51,907 bases of DNA, taken from contig RDZR01000040.1 in assembly GCA_004294095.1 (NCBI GenBank), forward strand, positions 1 through 51,907. The letters are read 5' to 3'. The position numbers and the translations under genes are program-made. Origin of the DNA: Verrucomicrobiota bacterium. GTDB taxonomy: Bacteria; Verrucomicrobiota; Verrucomicrobiia; Verrucomicrobiales; Akkermansiaceae. The notes below the pieces were generated by a model. That model was not told the DNA's origin. It made no database searches and was given only the letters and a program-made list of their open reading frames with translations. Numbering within the stretch: position 1 is the stretch's first letter; each line of letters starts with the position of its first letter. Shown in pieces: positions 679 to 13,703 of this stretch.

Positions 679-933
679 TCACCTCGATCCCGCCCATTCA
701 AATTCATGCGCCAAATCACCTGCCGTCAGCGGGCGCTCGATGCGACGCTCCCCAAGCAATTCCTCGGACTCACGGCGCGTCAAATCCGCCATTTCTGCCG
801 CCTTGCCTGCCGACAAAATCCCTCGCGCATACAGCGACAGCGCGAGTTCCCTCGTCAGCTCATGAGTCAGGTCCGCCGCACTCATCGAAGCCGAGGATAT
901 TACCGAATCTGGAATCTCCATGGTCAGTCGCAT
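679..933 (-). CDS. UPF0175 family antitoxin-like protein
   Basis: An 84-residue protein with the UPF0175 pattern: N-terminal MRLTMEIPDSV, then a helical segment ALSLYARGILSAGKAAEMADL and a C-terminal ELLGERRIERPLTAGDL. Members of this family are usually small antitoxins, or antitoxin-like DNA-binding proteins, encoded just upstream of a PIN-like DUF3368 toxin. Here the sequence after the stop (minus strand, below 679) does not encode a recognisable toxin, so the gene seems orphaned. It is transcribed away from the cas operon. Bases 300-678 contain only the terminator of the previous gene and no supportable CDS. Confidence 0.75.
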   Translation of the reverse strand: MRLTMEIPDSVISSASMSAADLTHELTRELALSLYARGILSAGKAAEMADLTRRESEELLGERRIERPLTAGDLAHEFEWAGSR

Positions 934-1103: not shown

Positions 1104-1212
1104 AGTCTCCACAGACAAGAGAAGGTGCCCCGGGGAAATCTTGTTACCGCAGTTCATACACTGCGAACGCCTATGAACTTCAATGAGACCCCGGGGCTAG
1201 GGGACTCTCTCA
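1104..1212 (-). CRISPR. Solitary degenerate repeat-spacer-repeat unit (CreR/CreA-like candidate)
   Basis: Read on the minus strand, 1212-1177 is a degenerate copy of the array repeat. It ends GGTCTCATTGAAGT where the array repeat ends GGTCTCATTGAAGC, so 13 consecutive bases are identical, including seven of the eight bases of the crRNA 5' handle. A hairpin precedes it (GAG.CCCC pairing with GGGG.CTC, loop of about 7), the same design as the array repeat with different stem bases. Then come exactly 37 bases (1176-1140), the modal spacer length of the main array. After that 1139-1104 begins ATTTCC, as the array repeat does, and diverges. The unit lies alone, about 11 kb from the array, in opposite orientation and upstream of the cas genes. 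By analogy with CreR/CreA RNAs of other type I systems, I infer a guide RNA that regulates a promoter. A dead relic of an old array is the alternative. Confidence 0.65.
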
Positions 1213-1235: not shown

Positions 1236-1268
1236 TTAATACTGCAAAATTTATTTAATACTGCAAAA
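1236..1268. repeat. Two direct repeats TTAATACTGCAAAA in the cas promoter region
   Basis: TTAATACTGCAAAA occurs at 1236-1249 and again at 1255-1268, 19 bases apart (about two helical turns), so both copies face the same side of the helix. The second copy begins with the putative -35 element of the cas promoter. This layout suits a dimeric repressor, or a duplicated promoter element. No matching regulator gene is identified in the window. Confidence 0.6.
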
Positions 1269-1276
1269 GCATATGA
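1240..1276 (-). promoter_or_regulatory. Partial protospacer for the solitary spacer, overlapping the cas promoter
   Basis: On the minus strand this site begins TCATATGCTTTTGCAGT. The spacer of the solitary unit begins TCATAGGCGTTCGCAGT. They match at 14 of the first 17 positions, with mismatches at 6, 9 and 12; positions 6 and 12 are ones that Cascade-bound guides leave unpaired. Beyond position 17 the match fades. Partial seed-end pairing is what known promoter-repressing CreR/CreA guides show. The trinucleotide 5' of the site (PAM side) is TAG, which is not the TTN reported for Geobacter type I-G. The footprint would cover the -35 element and most of the spacer of the presumed cas promoter. 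Confidence 0.55.
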
Positions 1277-1283
1277 CTATATT
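1255..1283 (+). promoter_or_regulatory. Candidate cas operon promoter
   Basis: TTAATA (1255-1260), a 17-base gap, then TATATT (1278-1283) form a plausible sigma-70-type promoter reading toward the small ORF at 1323 and cas7 at 1502. The surrounding stretch 1230-1290 is very AT-rich compared with its flanks. The predicted start would fall near 1290. The -35 match is weak, so the call rests mainly on the -10 element, position and AT content. Confidence 0.45.
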
Positions 1284-1322: not shown

Positions 1323-1505
1323 ATGTCAAACTCCTGTAAAAGCCCCAGCAGCAGCGAACGTCACCACTACGATCTGCCGACAGGAAATCCCTACGGTAAA
1401 TCAGGCGAAGAGAAATTCCTTACGCTCGAAGACGCCTACGAAAAAGAATTCGCCGCAAAATCAAAGCCAACTTCTCCCATTTCTCCAAAACTGAATATTC
1501 CATGA
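1323..1505 (+). CDS. Small 60-residue protein preceding cas7, unknown function
   Basis: Encodes 60 residues, hydrophilic and rich in Ser, Lys and Glu, with YDLPTGNPYGKSGEEKF in the middle; no known domain is recognised. Its stop codon overlaps the cas7 start in the arrangement ATGA (1502-1505), which usually indicates translational coupling in a real operon. It is the first ORF after the candidate promoter. No clear Shine-Dalgarno sequence precedes the ATG. A second frame (1273-1494) overlaps it and has a less protein-like composition. It could be a leader peptide, a small accessory subunit, or a chance ORF. Confidence 0.45.
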   Translation: MSNSCKSPSSSERHHYDLPTGNPYGKSGEEKFLTLEDAYEKEFAAKSKPTSPISPKLNIP

Positions 1506-2716
1506 AACACACCACACTCCACCAAGCCGTCCAATCCGCCGCCGGCCTCCGGCTTCGTCTCCGCCTCCAGCCGCTCTACGGTCAGGGAGAAATCATCTTC
1601 CCTTGCACCGTTGCAGGCGGGAAGTATCAAACATCCAAGCGCCGCATTCCCGGTTTCGAGAATTCTGTCGAGTGCACCATCATCGACAGTGTCCAAAGTC
1701 AGGCCAATCGCATGGAGGACGCTCTGCTAGCCGACATCCGCGCGGGAAACATCTTCCTCCCCCACATCGTCACGGACTTTTCCGGCATCGGGAACGACTT
1801 GGAAAAAGCCATTGGTGCGATCACCTGCTTTGAAGCGCCTCACCGCATTTTTGACGCAATTATCCGCGATTCAGTCAACGCCGAAGGAAAGCATTTTCCT
1901 TTCACCAAGGAAGGTAAAGCAGCCATCAAGGCAAACTCCAAAAACGCCACCGCCGTCTATGAAATCTCGCCTGCCAGCCTCCTGTTCGGAAGCTGGGACT
2001 CAACGGGCATTTCAGGCGGCCTCGGCGAGAAATATACCCGCTGTGTAGTGAGTGAGTTGGCGGCAGTGAACATTGAGAAGGAAACATTCCGGGCGGGAAC
2101 CAGAGAGGATCCTTTGAATATTGCAAAAGAGTCCTTCGCTGCCTCAATGAAATCCGAAGCAGGAAAGAATGATGACGCTTGGACTGCTCTTGCGGTCAAG
2201 GCTGCCGCAAAAAAGAAGAAGTTGGAAAACGCATCCGACATCAACCACAGCAGCGTTCCATGGGACGGAGAAAATAAAACAACCAAAGAGATGCACGGCG
2301 GCGTAACCTGCGACTACATCCAGCAGTCCACCACCATCTCCTTTGCCGCCCTGCGCCAGCTTCATTTCCTGGTCGACAGCAAAGATCTCTCCTCCTACGG
2401 CCAAACCGTTCTCGCCGCCATCGCCTTGCATGCCGCCGCTCTGAACGTCGAGCGGGGTTGGCACCTGCGCTCACGCTGTGATCTGATCCACGATGATGGG
2501 GCAAAACCAGAATGGGTGTTGCTTGGCGCTTCATCGAGCCAAGAAGCACTCACCACGGACATTACCCGCCAAATTCTCAACGAGTCCATCGAACAAGCAA
2601 ATACGGCCGGACTCACATGGAGAGATACCCCGATCCAACTCACCCCATCCCCCGCCCTGCGCGAGCTGGTCATCAATTCCCAGAAAGCCCATCGCGAAAC
2701 CGCACCTGCCGAATAA
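1502..2716 (+). CDS. csb1: Cas7 backbone protein of type I-G (Csb1, GSU0053 family)
   Basis: 404 residues. It carries the hallmarks of the GSU0053/Csb1 family: DSVQSQANRMEDAL near residue 61, the segment FEAPHRIFDAIIRDS around residue 110, and PASLLFGSWDSTGISGG around residue 155. Csb1 is the Cas7-type RAMP protein that polymerises along crRNA in the type I-G (I-U) Cascade. The family is close to 300-400 residues, so the gene is intact. The start at 1502 overlaps the preceding small ORF by four bases, and csb2 begins 1 base after its stop, so the genes are co-transcribed. Its position as first large cas gene agrees with the loss of a separate cas6: processing is expected from the next gene. 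Confidence 0.93.
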   Translation: MKHTTLHQAVQSAAGLRLRLRLQPLYGQGEIIFPCTVAGGKYQTSKRRIPGFENSVECTIIDSVQSQANRMEDALLADIRAGNIFLPHIVTDFSGIGNDLEKAIGAITCFEAPHRIFDAIIRDSVNAEGKHFPFTKEGKAAIKANSKNATAVYEISPASLLFGSWDSTGISGGLGEKYTRCVVSELAAVNIEKETFRAGTREDPLNIAKESFAASMKSEAGKNDDAWTALAVKAAAKKKKLENASDINHSSVPWDGENKTTKEMHGGVTCDYIQQSTTISFAALRQLHFLVDSKDLSSYGQTVLAAIALHAAALNVERGWHLRSRCDLIHDDGAKPEWVLLGASSSQEALTTDITRQILNESIEQANTAGLTWRDTPIQLTPSPALRELVINSQKAHRETAPAE

Positions 2717-2717
2717 T

Positions 2718-4328
2718 ATGTCCCTCACCCTATCGCTACAATTCCCCGCAGGGAGGTATGTGGCGGCATCGTGGGGCAACCGGGACGAGGTAGAATGGCC
2801 ACCTCACCCGGCCAGGCTTTGTCTTGCCCTCATCGATGTCCTCCACAAATCCGGAAACACAGAACCATCACGTAAGGCCTTATCCTGGTTTTTTGGCCAG
2901 GCTCCTCCCGTCATTGTCATTCCTGACAAACATCTTGCCGACGAACAACTGCTCGACGGAATTTATGTGCCGCAGAATCCCTCCGCAGCCGAAAACGGCA
3001 TCAAACACCCGCGCAAAGCACGTTCGTTTCCCACCGTCTTTCTCGATCCCGACCAGCCCACCGTCTTTTTCCACTGGCGCGATGCGGAGCTGCCACAAGC
3101 CATCCGTGATTCTCTCGGGAAACTCGTTTCATCGTTGCCTCGCTTCGGTCATTCCCACTCCCTCGTCATCGCAACCCTTTCCGATGAACTGCCGCCTGTC
3201 GGTGATGAATGGCGAGTGATTCGGCCTTTGGAGTCCAACCAACCCTGCACACCGGAATTCCGTCTGCGGGTCAATTGGGACGGCTTGCTGGAATCAGCTG
3301 AAGACGCGTTTGATGCCGATGCCCGAAGTAAAGAAATGGACAGCCTCATCGATACGGCAGCGCGAACCGCAAGGCCAGATAAACCCCTCAAGCCCGCAGC
3401 CTCGCCGCGCGGCCGCCACGATCCCCGCCACCGCTGGCATGGATACTCAGAGGAATGGAAATCCGCGCTCGCCACCACACCATGGGACAACCGTTTTCTC
3501 GTTCTAAAACAAATAGAAGGGACACGCATGGGTCTGCCATCCACTTGGCAGCTCACCGAAGTCTTCCACAAGACCTTGCTAAAACGCTGGCATGATAACC
3601 CATCACTCGGCCCCATCCCATCTTGGATCAGTGGCCACGCGGCGGGCGAACCCGGCGAAGCAACCGCCCCGACCACATCCTGCCATCTATCTATTTTCCC
3701 GCTCGCATTCGTCGGGAGGGAACATGCCACTGGCCATTTGCTGGGTCTTGGAATCGCCCTGCCCGCACCCGAGGCAATCGGCATGAATACCGCCGATTTC
3801 CGCATCCAATGGCGACAGATGCTCGGCGCGCTGTTAGATGAAGGCGGAGTGATCACCCTCACCCCACCCGACAATGCTTGGAAAATCCGTCTCGCTCCCG
3901 AGGAATTACCTGATCCAAGACAAGCTCTGCGGCCTTCTCGTTGGACCAAGCCCAGCTCGAAATGGCATACTGTCACCCCGATTATCCTCGATCGACACCC
4001 CAAGCCGCATTTCGGAAAAGACCCAGCCGCTTGGCATGAGAGCTGTGTGAAAATCATCGGCGAAGCCTGCCAACGCATCGGATTGCCCATCCCGGAGCAT
4101 ATCGATGTTTCACCTCATTCACCGTTGCCGGGCGTGCCAGCCGCCTTTGCCTTCGCAGCACCCACCGCCCGCTCAGGGCGTCCGCCGCGTTTCCACATTC
4201 ACGCCAGCATCCAATTTTCTGAACCCGTTGAAGGCCCCCTACTCTTGGGAGCTGGTCGCTATCGCGGCTACGGGCTGTGCCTTCCTATCCAATCTAAATC
4301 ATCTCATTCCGATGAAACCTTTTCCTAA
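2718..4328 (+). CDS. csb2: Cas5-Cas6 fusion of type I-G (Csb2, GSU0054 family)
   Basis: 536 residues from ATG 2718, one base after the cas7 stop; the open frame extends upstream to 2493 but that part lies inside cas7. The N-terminal half (MSLTLSLQFPAGRYVAASW) is Cas5-like. The C-terminal part ends with the glycine-rich loop LLLGAGRYRGYGLCLP, typical of Cas6-type RAMP domains. In type I-G this single protein caps the crRNA 5' handle and cleaves the repeat hairpin. The array repeats carry a 6-bp stem suited to such cleavage, which would leave the 8-nt handle ATTGAAGC. The gene overlaps the cas3 start by 17 bases. Confidence 0.9.
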   Translation: MSLTLSLQFPAGRYVAASWGNRDEVEWPPHPARLCLALIDVLHKSGNTEPSRKALSWFFGQAPPVIVIPDKHLADEQLLDGIYVPQNPSAAENGIKHPRKARSFPTVFLDPDQPTVFFHWRDAELPQAIRDSLGKLVSSLPRFGHSHSLVIATLSDELPPVGDEWRVIRPLESNQPCTPEFRLRVNWDGLLESAEDAFDADARSKEMDSLIDTAARTARPDKPLKPAASPRGRHDPRHRWHGYSEEWKSALATTPWDNRFLVLKQIEGTRMGLPSTWQLTEVFHKTLLKRWHDNPSLGPIPSWISGHAAGEPGEATAPTTSCHLSIFPLAFVGREHATGHLLGLGIALPAPEAIGMNTADFRIQWRQMLGALLDEGGVITLTPPDNAWKIRLAPEELPDPRQALRPSRWTKPSSKWHTVTPIILDRHPKPHFGKDPAAWHESCVKIIGEACQRIGLPIPEHIDVSPHSPLPGVPAAFAFAAPTARSGRPPRFHIHASIQFSEPVEGPLLLGAGRYRGYGLCLPIQSKSSHSDETFS

Positions 4329-7290
4329 TTTCGCCACCTTCTTCCAATCCATCTGGGCCTACGATCCCTTTCCATGGCAAGAGCGAATGGCGGAGGAAAC
4401 CGCCTCAGGCAAGTGGCGGGAATGGGTTACTCTCCCCACCGGCACTGGAAAAACCACGGTGATCGATATTGCCATCTACAATCTTGCACGCCAAGCCGCA
4501 CAGCCATCAGATCCACGCACCGCACCAGTGCGCATCGTCTTCGCCGTCAATCGCCGCATCGTCGTCGATGAAGCTTACGAACGAGCCAAAACCATTGCAG
4601 CAAAACTATCTATCGCCTGTGGGCAGCGCAAGAATGAGGACTTCGAGGACACAAAATTCCATCTTACTGGGACGCAGAAATCTCAACTAGAACCCGTAGC
4701 CCTAGCCCTTCAAAATCTCTCCGGCATAGAAAATGGTTCTCCCCTCGAAACCTACCCGCTACGCGGCGCAACTTTCACCGACCATTCATGGGCTCGAACG
4801 CCCACCCAGCCCCTGGTCATCACCACCACCCTCGACCAACTCGGCTCACGCCTGCTATTCCGTGGCTATGGAGTGTCCGCCTATGCCCGCCCCATCCACG
4901 CCGCTTTGCTCGCCAACGATTGCCTTCTCATTCTTGATGAAGCCCACACTGCCAAAGCCTTCTCGCAAACCCTCAATTCCGTCGCCGAACTCCGGAAGCA
5001 AGCCACAGAAGAAATCGAACTCCCCTTCGCCGCCGTCCAACTGACCGCCACGCCGCCGCCCGAAGTTCTTGACCCTTTCTCACTCGACCACGCTGACCGC
5101 CAAGACCCCACCATAATAGCCCGTTTGAGTGCATCCAAGCCCACCGAGCTGATGCCCGTCGTGGAAGGCGCAAAAGGTAAAGCCCGCCATAAAAAATTGG
5201 CCGACGACATGGGAGCCAAAGCTATCTCATTTCTAGGAGAAAACCACCGTCGCATCCTCATCGTCGTCAACCGCGTCGCCACGGCCGAGGCGCTCTTCGA
5301 GAGACTCAAGAAAGGGCACGATGCTAAAGTCTTACTCCTCACCGGTCGCCTGCGTCCCATGGATCGGGATGTCCTGATCGATAGCCTCAACGACACCTAT
5401 CAACTCAAGTCGAAAAATCCCCCCGCCGATGGCCCTAAACTCATCCTCCTCGCCACCCAATGCATTGAAGTTGGTGCCGATTTCGACTTCGATGCCCTGA
5501 TCTCCGAACTAGCCCCCCTCGACTGCCTACGCCAGCGCTTCGGGCGCCTCAATCGACAAGGCCGAAAAATTCCAGCACCCGCCGCGATCTTCACTCCAGA
5601 GGAAGCAGTCGGTTCCATTAAACCCGATCCGCTCTACGGCGATTGTCTTCCTGTCGTGCTTGCGTGGCTCAATCTAGCACGCGGCGAAAATGCTACCATC
5701 GACTTCGGACTAGACGCAATGCAGGAAAGTATTCTGAAAACGCAGGACTTTGATAGACTCCTCGCCCCTTCTGCCGACGCGCCGATCTTGCTCGCTCCCC
5801 ATCTTGATCTGCTTTGCCAAACATCGCCCGAGCCGCACGTCTCCCCCGATCCTGCGCTCTACACCCATGGCCCCGGCCGCAACTTCCCCGAAATTTCCGT
5901 CGTCCTGCGAGCGGATATTGGCGATTCATCCAAAGCCGCCGAGATTCTCAGAACCGTTCCACCTATTGGCACGGAAGCAGCCACCGTCCCCTTGCACCAC
6001 GCTCGAACATGGTTGGAAAACCCGACCGCCACGAACGACAACAGCGGCGATGCTCCCGAACAATCCATCGACGAATATCGCAAAGGCGAACTCGAAGTCA
6101 CTGGAGCCTTCCGCTTCTCATCCGGGGAAGCCACTCCGATTCAAAAATCCAACGAACTGCGGACTGGCGACATCCTCGTTCTCTCCACCCAGTTGAATCG
6201 CGATTGGCTGAAGGCTCTCTTTCCTATCCCTGAATCGGAAGAAGACGAACCCTGCCCGCTCGATCAATTCGAACGCGCATACCTACTCTCACGTGACCGA
6301 CTCTCCATCCGATTCCACAAAAAAATCCGCGACGAACTCCGTCAGCACCTCATCTCTGATGAGGCTCGCATCCGCTTTGAGGAAATCACAAACCCTCTCT
6401 TTGAACCCGATGAGGACGAAGAACGTTGGGTGTTTAACGAGAAAGATTGGAAGGAGAAAATGCCAGAACTCTCCGCCTTCCTAGCAGAATACCTAAGTGC
6501 AGATCACCCTTTGAAATCAATATGGGATGCAGCCGCCAAGCGATCGAAGGGCGACTGGAAAGCCATTCCTTTTCCCTCAAAATCCATCGACGGAGTCCTT
6601 TTCACCAACCGCACTCGCGTGGGAGCCACCCCATGGCCGCTCGATCCTGCGGATCTAGGACAGCAGGGCAACTCCAGCAATCGAACCGTGCTTCTTGATG
6701 ACCACTCGGCAGCGGTTTCTTCCCGCGCGGCATCCAACGCCAAAGGTCTCGCCGAACATCTCCGGCAAACCCTCCGCGATGCCGGCGCCACCCACGACCT
6801 CGGCAAGCTCGATCCCCGCTTCCAAGCGATGCTCCACGGTTGTTCGCTACAAGCCGCCGCAGCAAAGCCCACACTCGCCAAAAGCGAACCGTGCAGCCAA
6901 GCCATGGCGAAGAATTTCCGCAAACTTGCCGAACTCCCCGAAGGCTTCCGCCACGAACTGCTCTCCGCACTCATCGTTGCCGAATCTAAAGCCTTCGCCA
7001 CCCACACCGAGCCAGCTCTCCTCCTCCATCTCATCGCCAGCCATCACGGACGCTGCCGCGCCATGGCGCCCGTCATCCACGATGCCAGCCCAGAACCCTT
7101 TGACGCACCCCTAGATGCTGAAACCATTCGCTTCGCGGGCAAAGACTGTCCGCTAGCCCACCTTTCGGACGGCGTCGCAAAAAGATTCTGGCAGTTGAAC
7201 CGCCGCTTCGGTTGGTGGGGCTTGCCTTACCTCGAATCCCTCCTCCGTCTCGCCGACCAATACGAAAGCGCCAACCCGGAAAAGCCATGA
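4312..7290 (+). CDS. cas3: Cas3 helicase-nuclease, helicase first and HD domain C-terminal
   Basis: 992 residues from ATG 4312 (MKPFPNF), which overlaps csb2 by 17 bases; the longer frame from 4105 lies inside csb2. Walker A LPTGTGKT has its lysine near residue 47, the DEAH box is at 209-212, TATPP follows as motif III, and the arginine-finger motif QRFGRLNR is near 408. The HD nuclease motif THDLGK is at about 827-832, with a later HH near the C-terminus (ASHHGRCRAM). Helicase-then-HD is the order found in type I-G, the reverse of type I-E. All key residues are present, so target degradation should work. Cas3 is recruited by Cascade after R-loop formation. The gene ends in an ATGA overlap with cas8. 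Confidence 0.93.
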   Translation: MKPFPNFATFFQSIWAYDPFPWQERMAEETASGKWREWVTLPTGTGKTTVIDIAIYNLARQAAQPSDPRTAPVRIVFAVNRRIVVDEAYERAKTIAAKLSIACGQRKNEDFEDTKFHLTGTQKSQLEPVALALQNLSGIENGSPLETYPLRGATFTDHSWARTPTQPLVITTTLDQLGSRLLFRGYGVSAYARPIHAALLANDCLLILDEAHTAKAFSQTLNSVAELRKQATEEIELPFAAVQLTATPPPEVLDPFSLDHADRQDPTIIARLSASKPTELMPVVEGAKGKARHKKLADDMGAKAISFLGENHRRILIVVNRVATAEALFERLKKGHDAKVLLLTGRLRPMDRDVLIDSLNDTYQLKSKNPPADGPKLILLATQCIEVGADFDFDALISELAPLDCLRQRFGRLNRQGRKIPAPAAIFTPEEAVGSIKPDPLYGDCLPVVLAWLNLARGENATIDFGLDAMQESILKTQDFDRLLAPSADAPILLAPHLDLLCQTSPEPHVSPDPALYTHGPGRNFPEISVVLRADIGDSSKAAEILRTVPPIGTEAATVPLHHARTWLENPTATNDNSGDAPEQSIDEYRKGELEVTGAFRFSSGEATPIQKSNELRTGDILVLSTQLNRDWLKALFPIPESEEDEPCPLDQFERAYLLSRDRLSIRFHKKIRDELRQHLISDEARIRFEEITNPLFEPDEDEERWVFNEKDWKEKMPELSAFLAEYLSADHPLKSIWDAAAKRSKGDWKAIPFPSKSIDGVLFTNRTRVGATPWPLDPADLGQQGNSSNRTVLLDDHSAAVSSRAASNAKGLAEHLRQTLRDAGATHDLGKLDPRFQAMLHGCSLQAAAAKPTLAKSEPCSQAMAKNFRKLAELPEGFRHELLSALIVAESKAFATHTEPALLLHLIASHHGRCRAMAPVIHDASPEPFDAPLDAETIRFAGKDCPLAHLSDGVAKRFWQLNRRFGWWGLPYLESLLRLADQYESANPEKP

Positions 7291-8174
7291 ACCATACCTT
7301 CGAACTCCCCGGCTTACGGGAAGACAATCCACGCGATTTTCTCGCGGCGCTCGGCCTCCTCAGATTGATGGACACGATCTGGCCTGAGACCCACGCGAAG
7401 CTCAGTTGGAATTCCCAAACAGGCACGCCGTCCACCACTTCCACTCACCCACTCGCTGCGGACTTCCCACAACAACTCTGGGATCTCCTTCGTGATATTA
7501 AAGACCTAGACAACTCCCCTTTAGAACCCGTCACGGTGGAAGCGGTTTCTCCTGCTGATCATCGCAAAAAAATCATACAAGCAGTCGAGCGAAAGAGTAA
7601 AATCGAAGTCATGATCCTCGTCGCGGTGGCTTCGCAGCTAGAAATGGAAAAAGCATCAAGACGCTCGGATTTCATCATCGAATCGGGACAACGGCGAGTC
7701 ATGAAAGGTGTGTGTGATATGTTAGCCGAAGAATTTTTCGGACCAGCTCTACTTGATGAAATCGAAGGACGAGCAACCCCCGTGAAAGTGTCGAATAGCT
7801 CACGTTGGAACCCAGCGGAGTTCCGCTCGGCGGCCTACACAACCTCAGATCCTGCGAAAACCGATTTCCTCGATTTCCCCGGTCTCAATGTCATCGCCTT
7901 CATTGGGCTCACCTTTTATCCAGTCGTCGATTCATCGAAAAACAAAGCCACCCCCGGCTTCACCCGATCTCCTGGAAACAACCATTTTTCATGGCCAGTC
8001 TGGAGTGAGCCTCTCCTGCCCGATGAGATTACTTCCGTGCTCCACCATTCCGAAGTTCACGCGATAGAATTGAACCACTCGGTCTTGTCGAAAATCGGAA
8101 TCGACCGCGTTTGGAGAACCCGCAAGTTTGGAGATGCTAATAACAAGTATTTCTCCACCGCGATGCCCATATAA
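7287..8174 (+). CDS. csb3: Csb3 / Cas8-like large subunit of type I-G (GSU0052 type)
   Basis: 295 residues from ATG 7287, overlapping the cas3 stop by four bases (ATGA). The N-terminus LREDNPRDFLAALGLLRLM is the conserved opening of the GSU0052/Csb3 family, the presumed Cas8 of type I-G, which recognises PAM and holds the start of the R-loop. It is short for a Cas8, as usual in this subtype. The rest shows no recognisable enzymatic motif. Position directly after cas3 and strict coupling support the call; the subunit role in this organism is inferred from the family. Confidence 0.8.
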   Translation: MNHTFELPGLREDNPRDFLAALGLLRLMDTIWPETHAKLSWNSQTGTPSTTSTHPLAADFPQQLWDLLRDIKDLDNSPLEPVTVEAVSPADHRKKIIQAVERKSKIEVMILVAVASQLEMEKASRRSDFIIESGQRRVMKGVCDMLAEEFFGPALLDEIEGRATPVKVSNSSRWNPAEFRSAAYTTSDPAKTDFLDFPGLNVIAFIGLTFYPVVDSSKNKATPGFTRSPGNNHFSWPVWSEPLLPDEITSVLHHSEVHAIELNHSVLSKIGIDRVWRTRKFGDANNKYFSTAMPI

Positions 8175-8206
8175 CTAAAGCTCTAGCGCCATTTCATCAA
8201 AACCCC

Positions 8207-9202
8207 ATGCCCTACGCCCCGCCACTTTCCATCACCCCGCGTTTGATTGATCTGCTTTCGCGGATCAGTGAGGCATTGGGGCGTTGGGAGGGGGCGAGTG
8301 CGGGCACGGGGCTTTCGCCTAAGCTGCGGCGGGAGAATCGCATCCGCTCGATTCATGCCTCGCTGGCGATTGAAAACAACACGCTGAGCCTCTCTCAAGT
8401 CACAGACATCATTGCGGGCAAGCGGGTGTTAGGGCTGCCTCGGGAAATCAAGGAAGTGCAGAACGCGCTGGTGGCGTATGAGCTTATGGACTCGCTCGAT
8501 CCAGCCTCCAGCAAAGATTTTCTGAAAGCCCATGCCGCGCTCATGGCTGGCTTGGCGGACGATGCCGGTCGCTTTCGCAAAGGGGGCGTCGGCATCTATC
8601 AGGGAACTCGCCTTGTGCATCTGGCACCGCCGGCAGAGCGCGTTCCTTACGTCATCAAGGATCTTTTCGGCTGGTTCAAGAAGACGGAGCTGCATCCTTT
8701 GTTTGCAGCGACCGTGCTTCATTACGAAATCGAGTTCATCCACCCCTTCTCGGATGGCAACGGACGCATCGGACGGCTTTGGCAAACACTCGCACTCTCC
8801 CGCTGGAAACCGCAGCTTGGGGATTTGCCTATCGAAACGGTGGTTCATGCGAATCAAGCAGGCTACTATGCCGCTCTCGGCGCTGCGGATCGAGCAGCAG
8901 ATGCCGCTCCTTTCGCTGAATTTATTCTGGAGGCTTTGCTTGAAAGCCTCAGTAAAGCCAAAACGAGTGACCCAGTAAGTGACCTAGCTAGTGACCCAGT
9001 ATCGCGCCTACTGGCAGTATTCCTACCCGGAGAGTCACTCTCGATTCAAACGATGATGGAGCGACTCGACCTACGGCATCGCACTTACTTTCGCCGGACT
9101 TTTCTCAATCCTGCTCTCAAGGAGGGGAAAATCGCCATGACCGAGCCTGATTCCCCGCACAGTCCCAAGCAGCGCTATCGCCTCGTAACAAAGAGCAAGT
9201 AA
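8207..9202 (+). CDS. Fic-domain protein (probable AMP transferase) inside the cas operon
   Basis: 331 residues. The Fic core HPFSDGNGRIGR at residues 179-190 has the catalytic His, the Asn and both Arg needed for nucleotide transfer. An N-terminal inhibitory helix motif S-x3-E-N (SLAIENN, residues 52-58) marks it as a class II, self-inhibited Fic protein, in which the Glu blocks ATP orientation until released. The C-terminus (about 250-331) looks like a winged helix and is preceded by a short internal repeat, SDPVSDLASDPVS, whose DNA is also repeated (8967-9002). It sits 32 bases after cas8 and 5 bases before the next gene, on the same strand. Fic proteins are not standard type I-G components; regulation or abortive defence is possible but inferred. 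Confidence 0.88.
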   Translation: MPYAPPLSITPRLIDLLSRISEALGRWEGASAGTGLSPKLRRENRIRSIHASLAIENNTLSLSQVTDIIAGKRVLGLPREIKEVQNALVAYELMDSLDPASSKDFLKAHAALMAGLADDAGRFRKGGVGIYQGTRLVHLAPPAERVPYVIKDLFGWFKKTELHPLFAATVLHYEIEFIHPFSDGNGRIGRLWQTLALSRWKPQLGDLPIETVVHANQAGYYAALGAADRAADAAPFAEFILEALLESLSKAKTSDPVSDLASDPVSRLLAVFLPGESLSIQTMMERLDLRHRTYFRRTFLNPALKEGKIAMTEPDSPHSPKQRYRLVTKSK

Positions 9203-9207
9203 AGCCC

Positions 9208-10098
9208 ATGGACCGCGACCTCCATCACCAAACCGTCCAGCGCGCGCTCGAACTCGGGCGTGGCACTGATCCCGCAGTGCTGCCAGAAATCATTGCATTG
9301 CTGCGCTTCCCCTCCACCGAAGTCCGCCGCCTGGCGGCCTCTGCCATCGCCAAGCTCGCGCCCTTCGGTGCTGATCCCGTGGCCGCCATCCCCGCGCTGG
9401 TGCCCGTCGCTCTGCGCGATGCCCACCCGCAAGTTCAGCAATACGCGCTCAAAGCACTCAAATGTTTTGGCCACCACGCCGCCGCGCATCTGGCCGACCT
9501 CGATGACCTGACCAACAATCCCCACGCTAAAGACTACGTGCGCCGCGCTGCAAACTCCGCCGCCACCGCCATCCGCGAGGCCGTGCGTCTCCAGCAGGAA
9601 AACGCCCGCCACAAATGCCTTCGCTGCGGGTGCGAGACCACCGCCGAAGAGCACGCCCGCAGCCAGCAAGCCTTCCAGCGTAGCTTCTGTGACTCCTGCT
9701 TCGACGAGGTCTATCTCGACCGCCGCAACTTTGACGCCAAGGTGGAACTCAGCAAAACCATCACCGCCAAAGCCGGCACCCTCGTCCAGTCCGATGGCGA
9801 GCGCCTCATCGCCGACTGGCTCGCCGCCCATCACATCGCCTACCGATATGATGAGCGCTACCGCATTCTCAACGGCCATGCCATCCGCCCGGATTTCTAC
9901 CTGCCGGAACTCGACGTATACATCGAATACTGGGGCATGGACACTGCGGACTACAAAATCGGCATGCTCAAGAAACAACAACTCTACCAGCAAGAAGGGA
10001 AACGCCTCATTTCCATCCACCCGCCAGACAAGCCGCATCTGGACACTCTCCTCCGCCGCAAACTCGCCCTCTTCGGCTACACCATTCCACCCGCCTGA
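9208..10098 (+). CDS. HEAT-repeat / zinc-ribbon / PD-(D/E)XK-like nuclease protein
   Basis: 296 residues in three parts. Residues 1-125 are alpha-helical, with a HEAT-like pattern (PSTEVRRLAASAIAKL, HPQVQQYALKALKCF). Residues 137-164 hold CLRCGC and CDSC, a zinc ribbon. Residues 195-296 look like a PD-(D/E)XK nuclease of the type found at helicase C-termini: Glu198 in a leading helix, RPDFYLPE with Asp229, VYIEYWGM with Glu240, then a lysine-rich helix (KKQQLY) and a final ISIHPPD strand. The gene begins 5 bases after fic and precedes cas4-cas1 by 95 bases, so it sits within the cas operon. It is not a recognised cas gene. A DNA-targeting accessory nuclease is the inferred role. Confidence 0.72.
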   Translation: MDRDLHHQTVQRALELGRGTDPAVLPEIIALLRFPSTEVRRLAASAIAKLAPFGADPVAAIPALVPVALRDAHPQVQQYALKALKCFGHHAAAHLADLDDLTNNPHAKDYVRRAANSAATAIREAVRLQQENARHKCLRCGCETTAEEHARSQQAFQRSFCDSCFDEVYLDRRNFDAKVELSKTITAKAGTLVQSDGERLIADWLAAHHIAYRYDERYRILNGHAIRPDFYLPELDVYIEYWGMDTADYKIGMLKKQQLYQQEGKRLISIHPPDKPHLDTLLRRKLALFGYTIPPA

Positions 10099-10193
10099 TA
10101 CCGCATCGGCAAGCGGCAGCGAGTCAGCACCTACCACGCAGAGACTGACTCACTCCCGCTCGCCAGCGCCCCAACGAACCATCCCACACCCCC

Positions 10194-11996
10194 ATGGGCA
10201 ACGACGTCTCCAGCAACCTTCCCGAAGATTGGGCCACCGTGGACATGGTGAACCGCTTCACCTTCTGTCCGCGACTTTTCCACCTGATGTATGTGGAAGG
10301 TCGCTGGGAGGAAAATCAATTCACGCTCGAAGGCAAGGCCATCCATCGCCGGGTGGATCGCATCGACCAACTTCTCCCGGAATCGCTCACTGCGGAAAAA
10401 GCTCCGGAGCCAGAGCCGGAAGGCGATGCCCCGCCGGAGATTGCCCGCAGCGTATCGCTTGCACATGAGGGACTCGGCTTCATGGGCAAGCTCGATCTGG
10501 TTTCTGCCGATCCCGAGGGCGGCGAGGCAGTGCCGGTAGAGACCAAACGCGGCCGCGTGCCGGCCGTGCCGCTGCGGTCCTATCCGCCAGAGCGGGTGCA
10601 GCTCATGGCCCAAGGCTTGCTGCTGCGTGCGCACGGCTATCGCTCGGATCATGGCTACCTCTACTTCGCCGGCAGTCGCACGCGGGTGCGAGTGGACTTC
10701 GATGCGGAGCTGGAGGCCCAGACCTTGGCCGTGATTGCCGCAGTGCGTGAGGGCCGGGGAAATCCGGTGATGCCGCCGCCCTTAGAAGACAGCCCCAAGT
10801 GCTGGGGTTGCTCGCTGTGTGGAATTTGCCTGCCGGATGAAACCCGTGAACTCCGGGACTCCGTGAACGCGGGTGAGGATGATCCCGCCATGTCGGCGAC
10901 AGCCACCACGAGCCACGAACTCGGCAGCGATCCCCGCCGCCTCTATCCAGCCCGCGACAGGGCCACTCCTTTCTATGTGCAGGAACAAGGCGCACGCATT
11001 GGCAAGACGGGCGAGCGCCTGACCGTGCATAAAGAAGGTGAACTCATCGGCGAGACCCGCCTCATCGATACCAGTCAGGTGGTGATTTTCGGCAACGTGC
11101 AAATCACCGCCCAAGCCACCCATCTGCTCATGGACAAGGGCAAGCCCATCGTCCATTTCTCCACGGGAGCTTGGTTTCATGGCCTTAGCCACGGCATGGG
11201 AATCGAAAATTCCTACAGCCGCGCCGCTCAGTATGCAGCGGCAGCGGACCCGCAAATTTGCAGCCGCTTCACCATTCCGCTGATCTATGCCAAGGTGGCG
11301 AATCAGCGCGCCCTCATCCTGCGTAACGGCACGGGCGAGGCGAAGGAACGATGCGTCACGGCGCTGGCCGCCCATCTGAAAACCCTCGATCCCACAGCAG
11401 AGGGAATTCAGCGGCTGGCACAGACCGCTGCGGGCGGTCCCGAGTTTCTCTGGGGTTGGGAAGGTCAGGGAGCGTCCTACTACTTCGCCGCCTTTTCCTC
11501 CATGCTCAAGACCGGTGAGCTGCCAGACTTTGATTTCACCACCCGCAACCGCCGCCCGCCCAAAGACCCGGTCAATGCCCTCCTGTCCTTCACCTACGCG
11601 CTGTTAGTCAAAGAATCCTTGGTTGCTTTGTGGAGCGAGGGCTTGGATCCTTGGTGGGGACTCTATCATCGCCCGCGCCACGGCAGGCCCGCATTGGCAC
11701 TCGATTTCATGGAACCCTTCCGCCCCATTCTCGCAGACAGCGTGGTCATCACCGCCATCAACACCGGCATGGTCCGCCCCAAGGATTTTGAAACCAATGC
11801 CAACGGCTGCGCCATGAAGCCCGCCGCAAAAAAAGCCCTGCTGCGTGCGTGGGAACAACGGCTCGACCAAATTTATACCCACTCGGAATTCAATTACCGT
11901 TGTTCCTGGCGCACGATTTTGCGCATCCAGGCCCGCCTATTAGTTCGCCTGCTGCGTGGCGACATCCCCACTCTGCCATGGCCCGTCGTGAGATAA
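10194..11996 (+). CDS. cas4-cas1: Cas4-Cas1 fusion, spacer-acquisition integrase
   Basis: 600 residues. Residues 1-220 are Cas4: Cys25 in FTFCPRLF, RecB-type Asp101 and ETK (116-118), and CWGCSLCGIC (Cys203, 206, 209, 212), completing a Fe-S cluster set of cysteines. Cas1 follows from about residue 245: Glu423 in GWEGQGA, His492 in GLYH, and Asp504/Glu507 in LDFMEPFRP are the catalytic metal ligands. The Cas4-Cas1 fusion is characteristic of type I-G, where Cas4 trims and selects prespacers with the correct PAM. All catalytic residues are present, so adaptation should be active. The 3' end overlaps cas2 by 19 bases. Confidence 0.95.
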   Translation: MGNDVSSNLPEDWATVDMVNRFTFCPRLFHLMYVEGRWEENQFTLEGKAIHRRVDRIDQLLPESLTAEKAPEPEPEGDAPPEIARSVSLAHEGLGFMGKLDLVSADPEGGEAVPVETKRGRVPAVPLRSYPPERVQLMAQGLLLRAHGYRSDHGYLYFAGSRTRVRVDFDAELEAQTLAVIAAVREGRGNPVMPPPLEDSPKCWGCSLCGICLPDETRELRDSVNAGEDDPAMSATATTSHELGSDPRRLYPARDRATPFYVQEQGARIGKTGERLTVHKEGELIGETRLIDTSQVVIFGNVQITAQATHLLMDKGKPIVHFSTGAWFHGLSHGMGIENSYSRAAQYAAAADPQICSRFTIPLIYAKVANQRALILRNGTGEAKERCVTALAAHLKTLDPTAEGIQRLAQTAAGGPEFLWGWEGQGASYYFAAFSSMLKTGELPDFDFTTRNRRPPKDPVNALLSFTYALLVKESLVALWSEGLDPWWGLYHRPRHGRPALALDFMEPFRPILADSVVITAINTGMVRPKDFETNANGCAMKPAAKKALLRAWEQRLDQIYTHSEFNYRCSWRTILRIQARLLVRLLRGDIPTLPWPVVR

Positions 11997-12289
11997 GCAA
12001 TAACCGCAGCATCTACCTCTGCACCTACGACGTTTCCGAAGACAAGCGCCGGACCAAGCTCTTTGAACTCCTGAAGGATCATGGCGAGCATGTGCAGTTC
12101 AGTGTGTTTCTCTGCTCACTCACCGAAATGGAGGTGAAGCGCCTCAGCGCCACGGCCACAGAAATCATCCATCAGGAAAATGACCAACTGCTCATCATCG
12201 ACATTGGCCCGGATGTCAGTGACTGGGCTTCCAGCCTCGCGTGCTACGGAAAATCATGGTCGCCAGCCGTGAGATCGCAGATTATATAA
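11978..12289 (+). CDS. cas2: Cas2, structural partner of Cas1
   Basis: 103 residues from ATG 11978, inside the last codons of cas4-cas1. The open frame extends upstream to a GTG at 11849, but that part lies in cas4-cas1 and is not Cas2-like. The N-terminal strand SIYLCTYDVSEDKRRTKLFELLKDHG is the typical Cas2 ferredoxin-like start with the conserved Asp, followed by VQFSVFLCSL. The end YGKSWSPAVRSQII matches usual Cas2 C-termini. Length is normal. The CRISPR leader and array follow directly, as expected for an adaptation module. Confidence 0.92.
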   Translation: MARREISNNRSIYLCTYDVSEDKRRTKLFELLKDHGEHVQFSVFLCSLTEMEVKRLSATATEIIHQENDQLLIIDIGPDVSDWASSLACYGKSWSPAVRSQII

Positions 12290-12499: not shown

Positions 12500-13703
12500 A
12501 TTTCCGCGCCTTAAAAAGCGCGGTCTCATTGAAGCCGTTACTGCCGCGCCCCACAATTTCTTTCACCCCTAATTTCCGCGCCTTAAAAAGCGCGGTCTCA
12601 TTGAAGCAGATCATAGCGGATGTGGAGCGACATGAGATTAAATATTTCCGCGCCTTAAAAAGCGCGGTCTCATTGAAGCCGAGGCCGTGGCGAGAGCAGC
12701 AGGCCGCGCAACAAACATTTCCGCGCCTTAAAAAGCGCGGTCTCATTGAAGCTCCAGGCCTTGGGCGGTCAGGCGCGTGCGTAAGTCTGATTTCCGCGCC
12801 TTAAAAAGCGCGGTCTCATTGAAGCAGTCAGTCGCCATCGTCCAATCAACCACCGAAGACGATATTTCCGCGCCTTAAAAAGCGCGGTCTCATTGAAGCA
12901 TGACCGCTTGCGCTTCCGTTGCAAAGGCGGCGTAAGATTTCCGCGCCTTAAAAAGCGCGGTCTCATTGAAGCCCTTTATATCGGCGATATGGACCAAGAT
13001 GGCTTATATATTTCCGCGCCTTAAAAAGCGCGGTCTCATTGAAGCTTTGCTTTGAGGGTTATAAGCTGTGGCAAATTTACAAATTTCCGCGCCTTAAAAA
13101 GCGCGGTCTCATTGAAGCAGCCTTTTCTTTTCGGATGTTGCCTCGGCATCTGCAAGATTTCCGCGCCTTAAAAAGCGCGGTCTCATTGAAGCAGCTTCTT
13201 CGGTCGCTGTTTGCGCCACGCCGGACGCGATTTCCGCGCCTTAAAAAGCGCGGTCTCATTGAAGCACGCAGGCGAATTTCCGGTTGATCGGCGGTTTTTT
13301 GGATTTCCGCGCCTTAAAAAGCGCGGTCTCATTGAAGCAAGATGTAGGTTAGATCATTGCGCGCAAGGTCTGCTGCATTTCCGCGCCTTAAAAAGCGCGG
13401 TCTCATTGAAGCGATACGATGGCGGTGGTGCGGGGGCTGGAAAATAAGCATTTCCGCGCCTTAAAAAGCGCGGTCTCATTGAAGCCCGTTTCTGAGCGAG
13501 GATCGCGGTTGAGTAGCGCAGCATTTCCGCGCCTTAAAAAGCGCGGTCTCATTGAAGCATGTTTAAGCGGGGCTTGATTGCCCTGACACGCAAAGATTTC
13601 CGCGCCTTAAAAAGCGCGGTCTCATTGAAGTTCAGATTTTGAGTTGGCGTTACCGCTCGACTGCTGAATTTCCGCGCATGAATGAGCGCGGTTTCATCGT
13701 CCT
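12500..13703 (+). CRISPR. Type I-G CRISPR array, 16 regular repeats plus one degenerate
   Basis: Repeats of 36 bases begin at 12500, 12572, 12644, 12717, 12790, 12864, 12937, 13010, 13083, 13157, 13230, 13303, 13377, 13450, 13523 and 13596, with 16 spacers of 36-38 bases. The repeat begins ATTTCCGCGCC, has a stem CCGCGC/GCGCGG around the loop CTTAAAAA, and ends TCTCATTGAAGC. The last eight bases, ATTGAAGC, look like the usual crRNA 5' handle, so the plus strand is the crRNA strand. The repeat at 13596 has its final C changed to T. A 17th, degenerate repeat lies at 13668-13703. Near-identical repeats suggest an active array. No spacer was found to match the window. Confidence 0.98.
13668..13703 (+). 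repeat. Degenerate terminal CRISPR repeat
   Basis: Keeps ATTTCCGCGC and GCGCGG, so the full 6-bp stem remains, but the loop reads ATGAATGA and the tail is TTTCATCGTCCT. Such decay is normal at the leader-distal end. It fixes the array orientation, with the oldest spacer next to it. Confidence 0.85.

Follow-up and report, generated by a model that had tools for sequence, protein, structure and literature searches.

A solitary repeat-spacer-repeat unit on the minus strand upstream of a type I-G cas operon in a Verrucomicrobiota bacterium is very probably a CreR-like guide, i.e., a crRNA mimic that represses the cas operon of its own locus, a proposal for which there are no RNA or expression data. 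CreR are cas-regulating crRNA-like RNAs which, according to the accessible part of a review, are associated with type I and V-A systems (PMC12737573). A CreR/CreA-like guide had been put forward in a preliminary description of this DNA. The idea is now supported both by a target in the cas promoter gap and by units of the same kind at other loci, and CreR fits better than CreA since the targeted promoter has no known toxin under its control in the window, by which we mean the whole stretch of 51,907 nucleotides that was analysed. The proposal would extend RNA-guided self-regulation to type I-G, described in the available sections of one study as the least well understood type I subtype (PMC9638904), and each candidate locus is given a named target. 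It also calls for caution in reading spacer-like units near cas genes as immune memory.

The locus and the solitary unit

The window is one contig (RDZR01000040.1) of a 3.0-Mb genome that is 97% complete. Its first 14 kb form a type I-G CRISPR-Cas operon on the plus strand, and among the best 80 of 307 related stretches the named-record relatives closest to its Cas7 belong to the Verrucomicrobiota. The first recognised gene of the operon, cas7g/csb1 (positions 1502–2716), is followed on the same strand by csb2, cas3g, a gene for a Cas3-extension protein, a Fic gene, a HEAT-repeat protein gene, a cas4g-cas1g fusion and cas2 (2709–12289), and then by a CRISPR array of 17 repeats, ATTTCCGCGCCTTAAAAAGCGCGGTCTCATTGAAGC (12500–13703). 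A 60-aa ORF (1323–1505, plus strand), which overlaps the cas7 start by 4 nt, has no Pfam match and no tblastn match in L024–L103. Downstream of the unit is located a UPF0175 antitoxin-like gene (679–933, minus strand), the only UPF0175 match of the genome; UPF0175 (COG2886) is, in the part of the source at hand, a predicted antitoxin family of PIN genes (PMC2701414).

The unit itself was read directly from the sequence. Its degenerate first repeat, R1, is TGAGAGAGTCCCCTAGCCCCGGGGTCTCATTGAAGT (1177–1212, minus strand), the spacer or guide is TCATAGGCGTTCGCAGTGTATGAACTGCGGTAACAAG (1140–1176, minus strand; 37 nt, seed TCATAGGCGTT), and the strongly degenerate second repeat, R2 (1104–1139, minus strand), starts with ATTTCCCCGGGG and keeps the ATTTCC motif. 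At the 3’ terminus of R1, GGTCTCATTGAAGT, 13 nt are identical to the array repeat (GGTCTCATTGAAG) and are followed by T in place of C; the end ATTGAAGT would supply the 5’ handle. This reading confirms the anatomy first described, i.e., a degenerate repeat with an array-identical end of 13 nt, a spacer of exactly 37 nt and a second repeat with ATTTCC. Over their full lengths R1 and R2 share only 18/36 and 14/36 ungapped identities with the array repeat, so that the near-identical repeats of a canonical CRISPR array are not found here. What is found are two degenerate cognate repeats around one spacer, outside an array and beside cas genes, as is characteristic of CreR. In the array itself, the penultimate repeat of the terminal portion (13596–13703) has the same GAAGT ending as R1, and the last repeat is degenerate.

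The window holds 17 copies of the arrangement GGTCTCATTGAAG-N34–41-ATTTCC, of which 16 belong to the array and one is the unit, whereas shuffling gives an expectation of 0.00 (100 shuffles). Throughout the 3.0-Mb genome GGTCTCATTGAAG is likewise confined to 16 copies in the array and one at the unit, and the reversed control has none. A replacement hairpin (CCCC/GGGG) had also been claimed, and it is present in R1: the centroid fold gives CCCC-UAGCCCC-GGGG, with the 3’ arm where the array repeat has its 3’ arm. The energy of this hairpin is, however, ordinary (z −1.1; 28 of 200 shuffles fold equally well), while that of the array repeat is unusual (z −2.5; 3 of 200 shuffles as good). The claim does not extend to R2, which has no such hairpin and folds worse than its own shuffles (z +1.5). 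When the whole stretch of the unit is folded, R1 pairs with R2 via CCCCGGGG blocks, for reasons that remain unexplained.

The predicted target in the cas promoter gap

Between the unit and cas7, positions 1276–1260 of the minus strand match spacer bases 1–17 at 14 of the 15 informative positions. The predicted target, TCATATGCTTTTGCAGTA (1259–1276, minus strand), lies 100 nt from the spacer start and is identical to the spacer at 14 of 18 bases, the mismatches falling at bases 6, 9, 12 and 18. Within the seed (bases 1–5 and 7–11) 9 of 10 bases match, base 9 being the only exception, and bases 13–17 match at all five positions. For comparison among sites, bases 1–5 and 7–11 were given a weight of 2 and bases 13–17 a weight of 1, for a maximum of 25, and the PAM was left unscored. 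On this scale the window target reaches 23/25 and the next best upstream site 17.

Such a score is rarely obtained by chance. Over the 2.6 kb upstream, 1 of 585 array spacers drawn from the same set of loci, 14 of them from the window’s own array, reaches it (p=0.0034 with +1), and in an earlier and simpler test 2 of 300 mononucleotide shuffles attained the window target match. Within the 289-nt gap between unit and cas7, a score of 23 is reached by none of the 585 array spacers and by 1 of 20,000 dinucleotide shuffles, and none of 5,000 random 289-nt segments of the contig holds a site of this score. Genome-wide, the spacer itself excepted, no site other than the target has fewer than two mismatches among the 15 positions counted; sites with two mismatches number 4, versus 6 in the reversed control.

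The target overlaps a promoter-like site of the cas operon, TTAATA-17-TATATT (1255–1283, plus strand), and an opposing -10-like hexamer, TATAGT, is present at 1281–1276 on the minus strand. Both are consensus matches only, and the three promoter-like matches found compare with 0.8 (sd 1.1) in shuffles. The spacer is partly complementary, in seed blocks, to the predicted promoter of its own cas operon, which is a further characteristic of CreR. The cas promoter gap also includes a perfect 15-nt direct repeat, TTTAATACTGCAAAA (1235–1249 and 1254–1268, plus strand), whose copies start 19 nt apart and whose second copy overlaps the target. This repeat could be an operator for UPF0175 or another regulator.

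Comparable units in related loci

Seven aligned Cas7 proteins were scanned against genome contigs, the best 80 of the 307 related stretches were taken together with the window, and units were sought outside arrays as a repeat-end handle with an R2 start. This gave 56 candidates in 1.31 Mb, 27 of them within the 217.8 kb that lie between −3000 and +100 of cas7. The 27 rows tested for an own-locus target comprise 25 candidates at −2600 to +50 and two added by hand (L075 at −185, L067 at −786). Across these 81 type I-G loci, 17 of the 27 rows have a target at p<0.05, against an expectation of about 1.4, and 10 have none in their own upstream region. The dinucleotide TT at −3,−2 of the target, which did not enter the score, was found in 14 of the 17 significant rows versus 0 of the 10 others. 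Among the rows counted as misses, L054, L066, L071, L093, L049 and L075 at −1988 are probably chance handles, and L033 at −755, L067 at −786 and L079 at −263 are repeats adjoining a unit. The row L075 at −185 is unit-like, yet has no target.

The preliminary description had proposed that the corresponding upstream regions of related type I-G loci be compared, and some relatives do carry comparable units, with differing spacers that match the locus in which they lie. Their specificity was assessed with 19 units kept by hand, namely the 17 significant ones, L012 (by eye) and L075, nine rows being dropped. A score of at least 21 is reached by 18 of the 19 units at their own locus, versus 14 of 342 cross-pairs, with mean scores of 22.3 and 17.8, respectively. 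For 14 units no other region scores as high as their own, for 4 one other region equals or exceeds it, and L075 fails; none of 20,000 permutations reaches the diagonal sum. In the 18 matching units, bases 1–5 match in 17–18, base 7 in 18, bases 8–9 in 11–12, bases 10–11 in 16–17 and bases 13–17 in 14–18. The levels at these scored bases are partly the result of selection. This does not apply to the unscored bases, of which base 6 matches in 5 units, base 12 in 3 and base 18 in 6 (17–33%), and bases 19–24 in 6–9 (33–50%). The matches thus run in 5+1 blocks and fade after base 17. The available portions of two studies describe Cas7 subunits of the I-G effector that each flip out every sixth base, in a 5+1 arrangement (PMC9638904), and a CreA seed formed by bases 1–5 and 7–11 (PMC8501985); rare matching at bases 6, 12 and 18 is what would be expected from the two together.

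With the handle alone and no demand for R2, one or more hits, some probably due to chance, were obtained in 21 of 103 locus records; an upstream stretch of 1 kb or longer is present in 93 of the 103. In a decoy test, the 596 real handles yielded 25 hits, versus 0–6 hits per 268–584 handles for each of 12 shuffled handles. The criterion employed there, which L027 and L033 do not reach, included TTN, and several of the 25 hits (L081 and L089, for example) look like chance.

The candidate loci are found in Verrucomicrobiota, Planctomycetota, Acidobacteriota and Nitrospirota. In a Cas7 tree of 80 rows (3 of 83, including the unit bearer L079, were dropped as too short), the 18 unit-bearing rows require at least 16 changes. 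Shuffled labels require 16.5 on average and are as low in 229 of 500 cases; since the scatter resembles that of shuffled labels, the units seem to come and go. Within the 11-row Cas7 clade of the window a unit was detected only in the window, L027 and L033. The absence of a unit from this site in related genomes, combined with its alignment to a former array elsewhere, had been named beforehand as evidence that would count against a guide; in most close relatives no unit was detected. In L039 and L099, both from Planctomycetota, 13 of the first 15 spacer bases are common (ATTRTCTTGGKCGGT) when compared by eye, as if the two guides might have descended from one.

The published type I-G PAM is TTN, as given in the accessible part of PMC9638904, which cites Almendros 2019. 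Three significant targets do not have it: the window, with TAG at the PAM position (1277–1279, minus strand), and L027 and L033, both with GTG. These are the three unit-bearing members of the 11-row Cas7 clade, which has a support of 100/100. Their targets score 23, 22 and 22, the next best sites 17–18 and the best TTN sites 15–17. Two explanations offer themselves, a clade-specific PAM that ends in G or a weak PAM at these particular regulatory sites. The arrays of the window, L024, L030 and L033 gave no protospacer match in a phage collection (the arrays of L025 and L032 were excluded), nor did 24-nt pieces of 4 of the 16 window array spacers match viral contigs.

Neighbouring genes, alternatives and a proposed mechanism

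Mini-arrays resembling crRNA genes were reportedly surveyed by Shmakov et al. in 2023, as solitary repeats within cas loci that are directed against promoters of cas or of toxin-antitoxin genes; the survey is said to have placed them in a variety of type I systems and next to toxin-antitoxin cargo. Like the unit, CreR are mini-arrays beside cas, with degenerate repeats and a spacer partly complementary to the cas promoter, and as in the window no known toxin gene lies in between. The unit differs from them in its subtype, I-G, in its UPF0175 antitoxin neighbour, in its non-TTN PAM and in an R2 without hairpin. CreTA, which in the available parts of two studies combines a CreA guide with a CreT RNA toxin (PMC8501985, PMC9458426), shares with the unit two diverged repeats around a spacer, a seed at bases 1–5 and 7–11 and a promoter target. 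Unlike CreTA, the window locus has no known toxin, and five relatives carry genes for protein toxins, not RNA toxins. CrePA, a protein toxin held down by a crRNA-like RNA in the same review excerpt as CreR (PMC12737573), resembles the relatives that bear DUF3368, but these also retain a gene for a protein antitoxin (UPF0175), the guide lying between it and the toxin, and the window has no known toxin. CRISPRCas_50, a candidate structured RNA, is like the unit intergenic and found in type I-G loci (PMC9067536). In contrast to the unit, it is palindromic, is located about 50 bases from arrays and occurs in Proteobacteria and Actinobacteria, and the portion of that source at hand describes no guide or target for it. 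In the literature searched, the coverage of which was partial and did not extend to two key 2023 studies, no CreR or CreA was found in type I-G, and the accessible part of PMC12669027 makes no mention of mini-array, crRNA-like, CreA or I-G. The unit belongs to a known kind of element, and the module around it is possibly new.

That module was recognised in five loci. In L033, L067 and L095 the unit is flanked by a DUF3368 gene on one side and a UPF0175 gene on the other, and all three elements are on the minus strand. The target falls in the interval from the start of the toxin gene to cas7 in L067 and L095, and in L033 it overlaps the start predicted for the toxin. The same DUF3368–unit–UPF0175 order was found by eye and tblastn in L012, and by tblastn in L013, where the unit is at −771 and has a TTA-flanked match; the target places of these two loci were read by eye. 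All five toxin–guide–antitoxin loci belong to Verrucomicrobiota or to the window’s order, and L033, whose upstream DNA is that of G650/L140, a record listed under the window’s genus, is placed in that genus as well. In a tblastn search with seven queries against 115 locus records (some loci being present twice, and the flank being limited to 1.5 kb in many), these five were the only loci in which both a DUF3368-like and a UPF0175-like sequence were detected, and the window the only one with UPF0175 but without DUF3368.

The unit might be taken for a CreA/CrePA-like antitoxin guide, which represses a toxin promoter instead of cas and makes the cell dependent on the effector. The five loci just described, with their targets at the toxin/cas7 gap, speak for this, as do the UPF0175 gene kept by the window and the unexplained 60-aa ORF directly after the target. 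We nevertheless regard it as unlikely for the window, given that tblastn found no DUF3368-like sequence at its locus, that the one DUF3368 match of its genome is below the family cut-off and on another contig, and that the 60-aa ORF is without a Pfam match.

Still less credence is given to a decayed remnant of a former array that has no present function. The degeneracy of both repeats, the lost hairpin of R2 and an R1 hairpin no stronger than shuffles would all agree with decay, as would the GAAGT ending of a distal array repeat and the lack of a unit in most close relatives; a relic would not, however, match the adjacent promoter in effector-sized blocks, and at other loci similar units with different spacers do match the region upstream of their own cas7. 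A mini-array of the ordinary immune kind, or a self spacer captured accidentally from the promoter, appears the most improbable of all and is barely worth retaining, even though a 37-nt spacer is flanked here by repeat-like ends. From a captured self spacer a full-length match would be expected, whereas the observed match stops at base 17 and spares bases 6 and 12. As to immunity, the unit has no match in phage or plasmid records and the first 24 spacer bases have none in viral contigs; these negatives are weak, as the array spacers tested matched nothing either.

For a CreR-like guide, the preferred reading, the following mechanism can be inferred. The unit would be transcribed leftward and cut at R1, giving an RNA with the 5’ handle ATTGAAGT and the 37-nt guide, which would load into the type I-G effector. 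A 17-base match would, by analogy, permit binding without a full R-loop and cleavage by Cas3; in the available sections of PMC10758571 a shortened guide can bind without Cas3 cleavage, and a Thioalkalivibrio type I-G effector is described there as functional in E. coli MG1655. The bound complex would cover the predicted -35 and -10 elements of the cas operon and so repress it, and because it would also cover the possible promoter of the unit itself, it could block the unit too. Repression would presumably be relieved by abundant crRNAs, by loss of the effector or by anti-CRISPR proteins. Relief by competing crRNAs or anti-CRISPR proteins is part of the CreR model in the excerpted review (PMC12737573). 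Since R2 is without a hairpin and that of R1 is no stronger than in shuffles, processing is unexplained, and the 3’ end of the RNA is the weakest step of the model.

The simplest account of the neighbourhood, suggested by comparison with the other loci, is that the window unit may have descended from a toxin–guide–antitoxin module from which the toxin was lost. The opposite order, with gain of a toxin, is not excluded, and the existence of toxin-bearing and toxin-free versions makes it directly testable whether an addiction module turned into a regulator or a regulator into an addiction module. A wider scheme is offered tentatively, and we hold it to be possible rather than probable: type I-G would have a three-part module, DUF3368–guide–UPF0175, in which the effector silences a promoter shared by toxin and cas; in the window, with the toxin lost, a pure cas autorepressor would remain, acting via the guide and perhaps via UPF0175 at the 15-nt repeat; and the PAM of the clade would end in G.

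Other neighbours of the units are also toxin-antitoxin-like, including PIN genes (L097, L098), a DUF433 gene (L079) and a weak BrnT match, below the cut-off, near the unit of L046. In L024, L025, L026, L029 and L031 the site of the unit upstream of cas7 is occupied by a divergent regulator-like gene, which we take to be of the WYL type. A strict rule that such a regulator replaces the unit was rejected, because L027 and L033 carry a regulator, placed further upstream, in addition to a unit, and because neither was found by these searches in L028, L030 and L032. Proteins of 163–202 aa are encoded beside units on the minus strand in L038 (990–1595), L039 (3275–3772), L064 (568–1062) and L095 (8130–8618). 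They are mutually alike and, by eye only, kinase-like, without a Pfam match; in L038 and L095 they are accompanied by a small partner ORF, and the two may be an unrecognised cargo pair. Within the window operon, the Fic and HEAT-repeat genes (8207–10098) have relatives in other loci: a Fic gene 66% identical, also after the Cas3-extension gene, in L027, and HEAT-repeat proteins 60% and 77% identical in L061 and L067, in both cases between csb2 and cas3. From these relatives, both genes look like mobile cargo of I-G operons.
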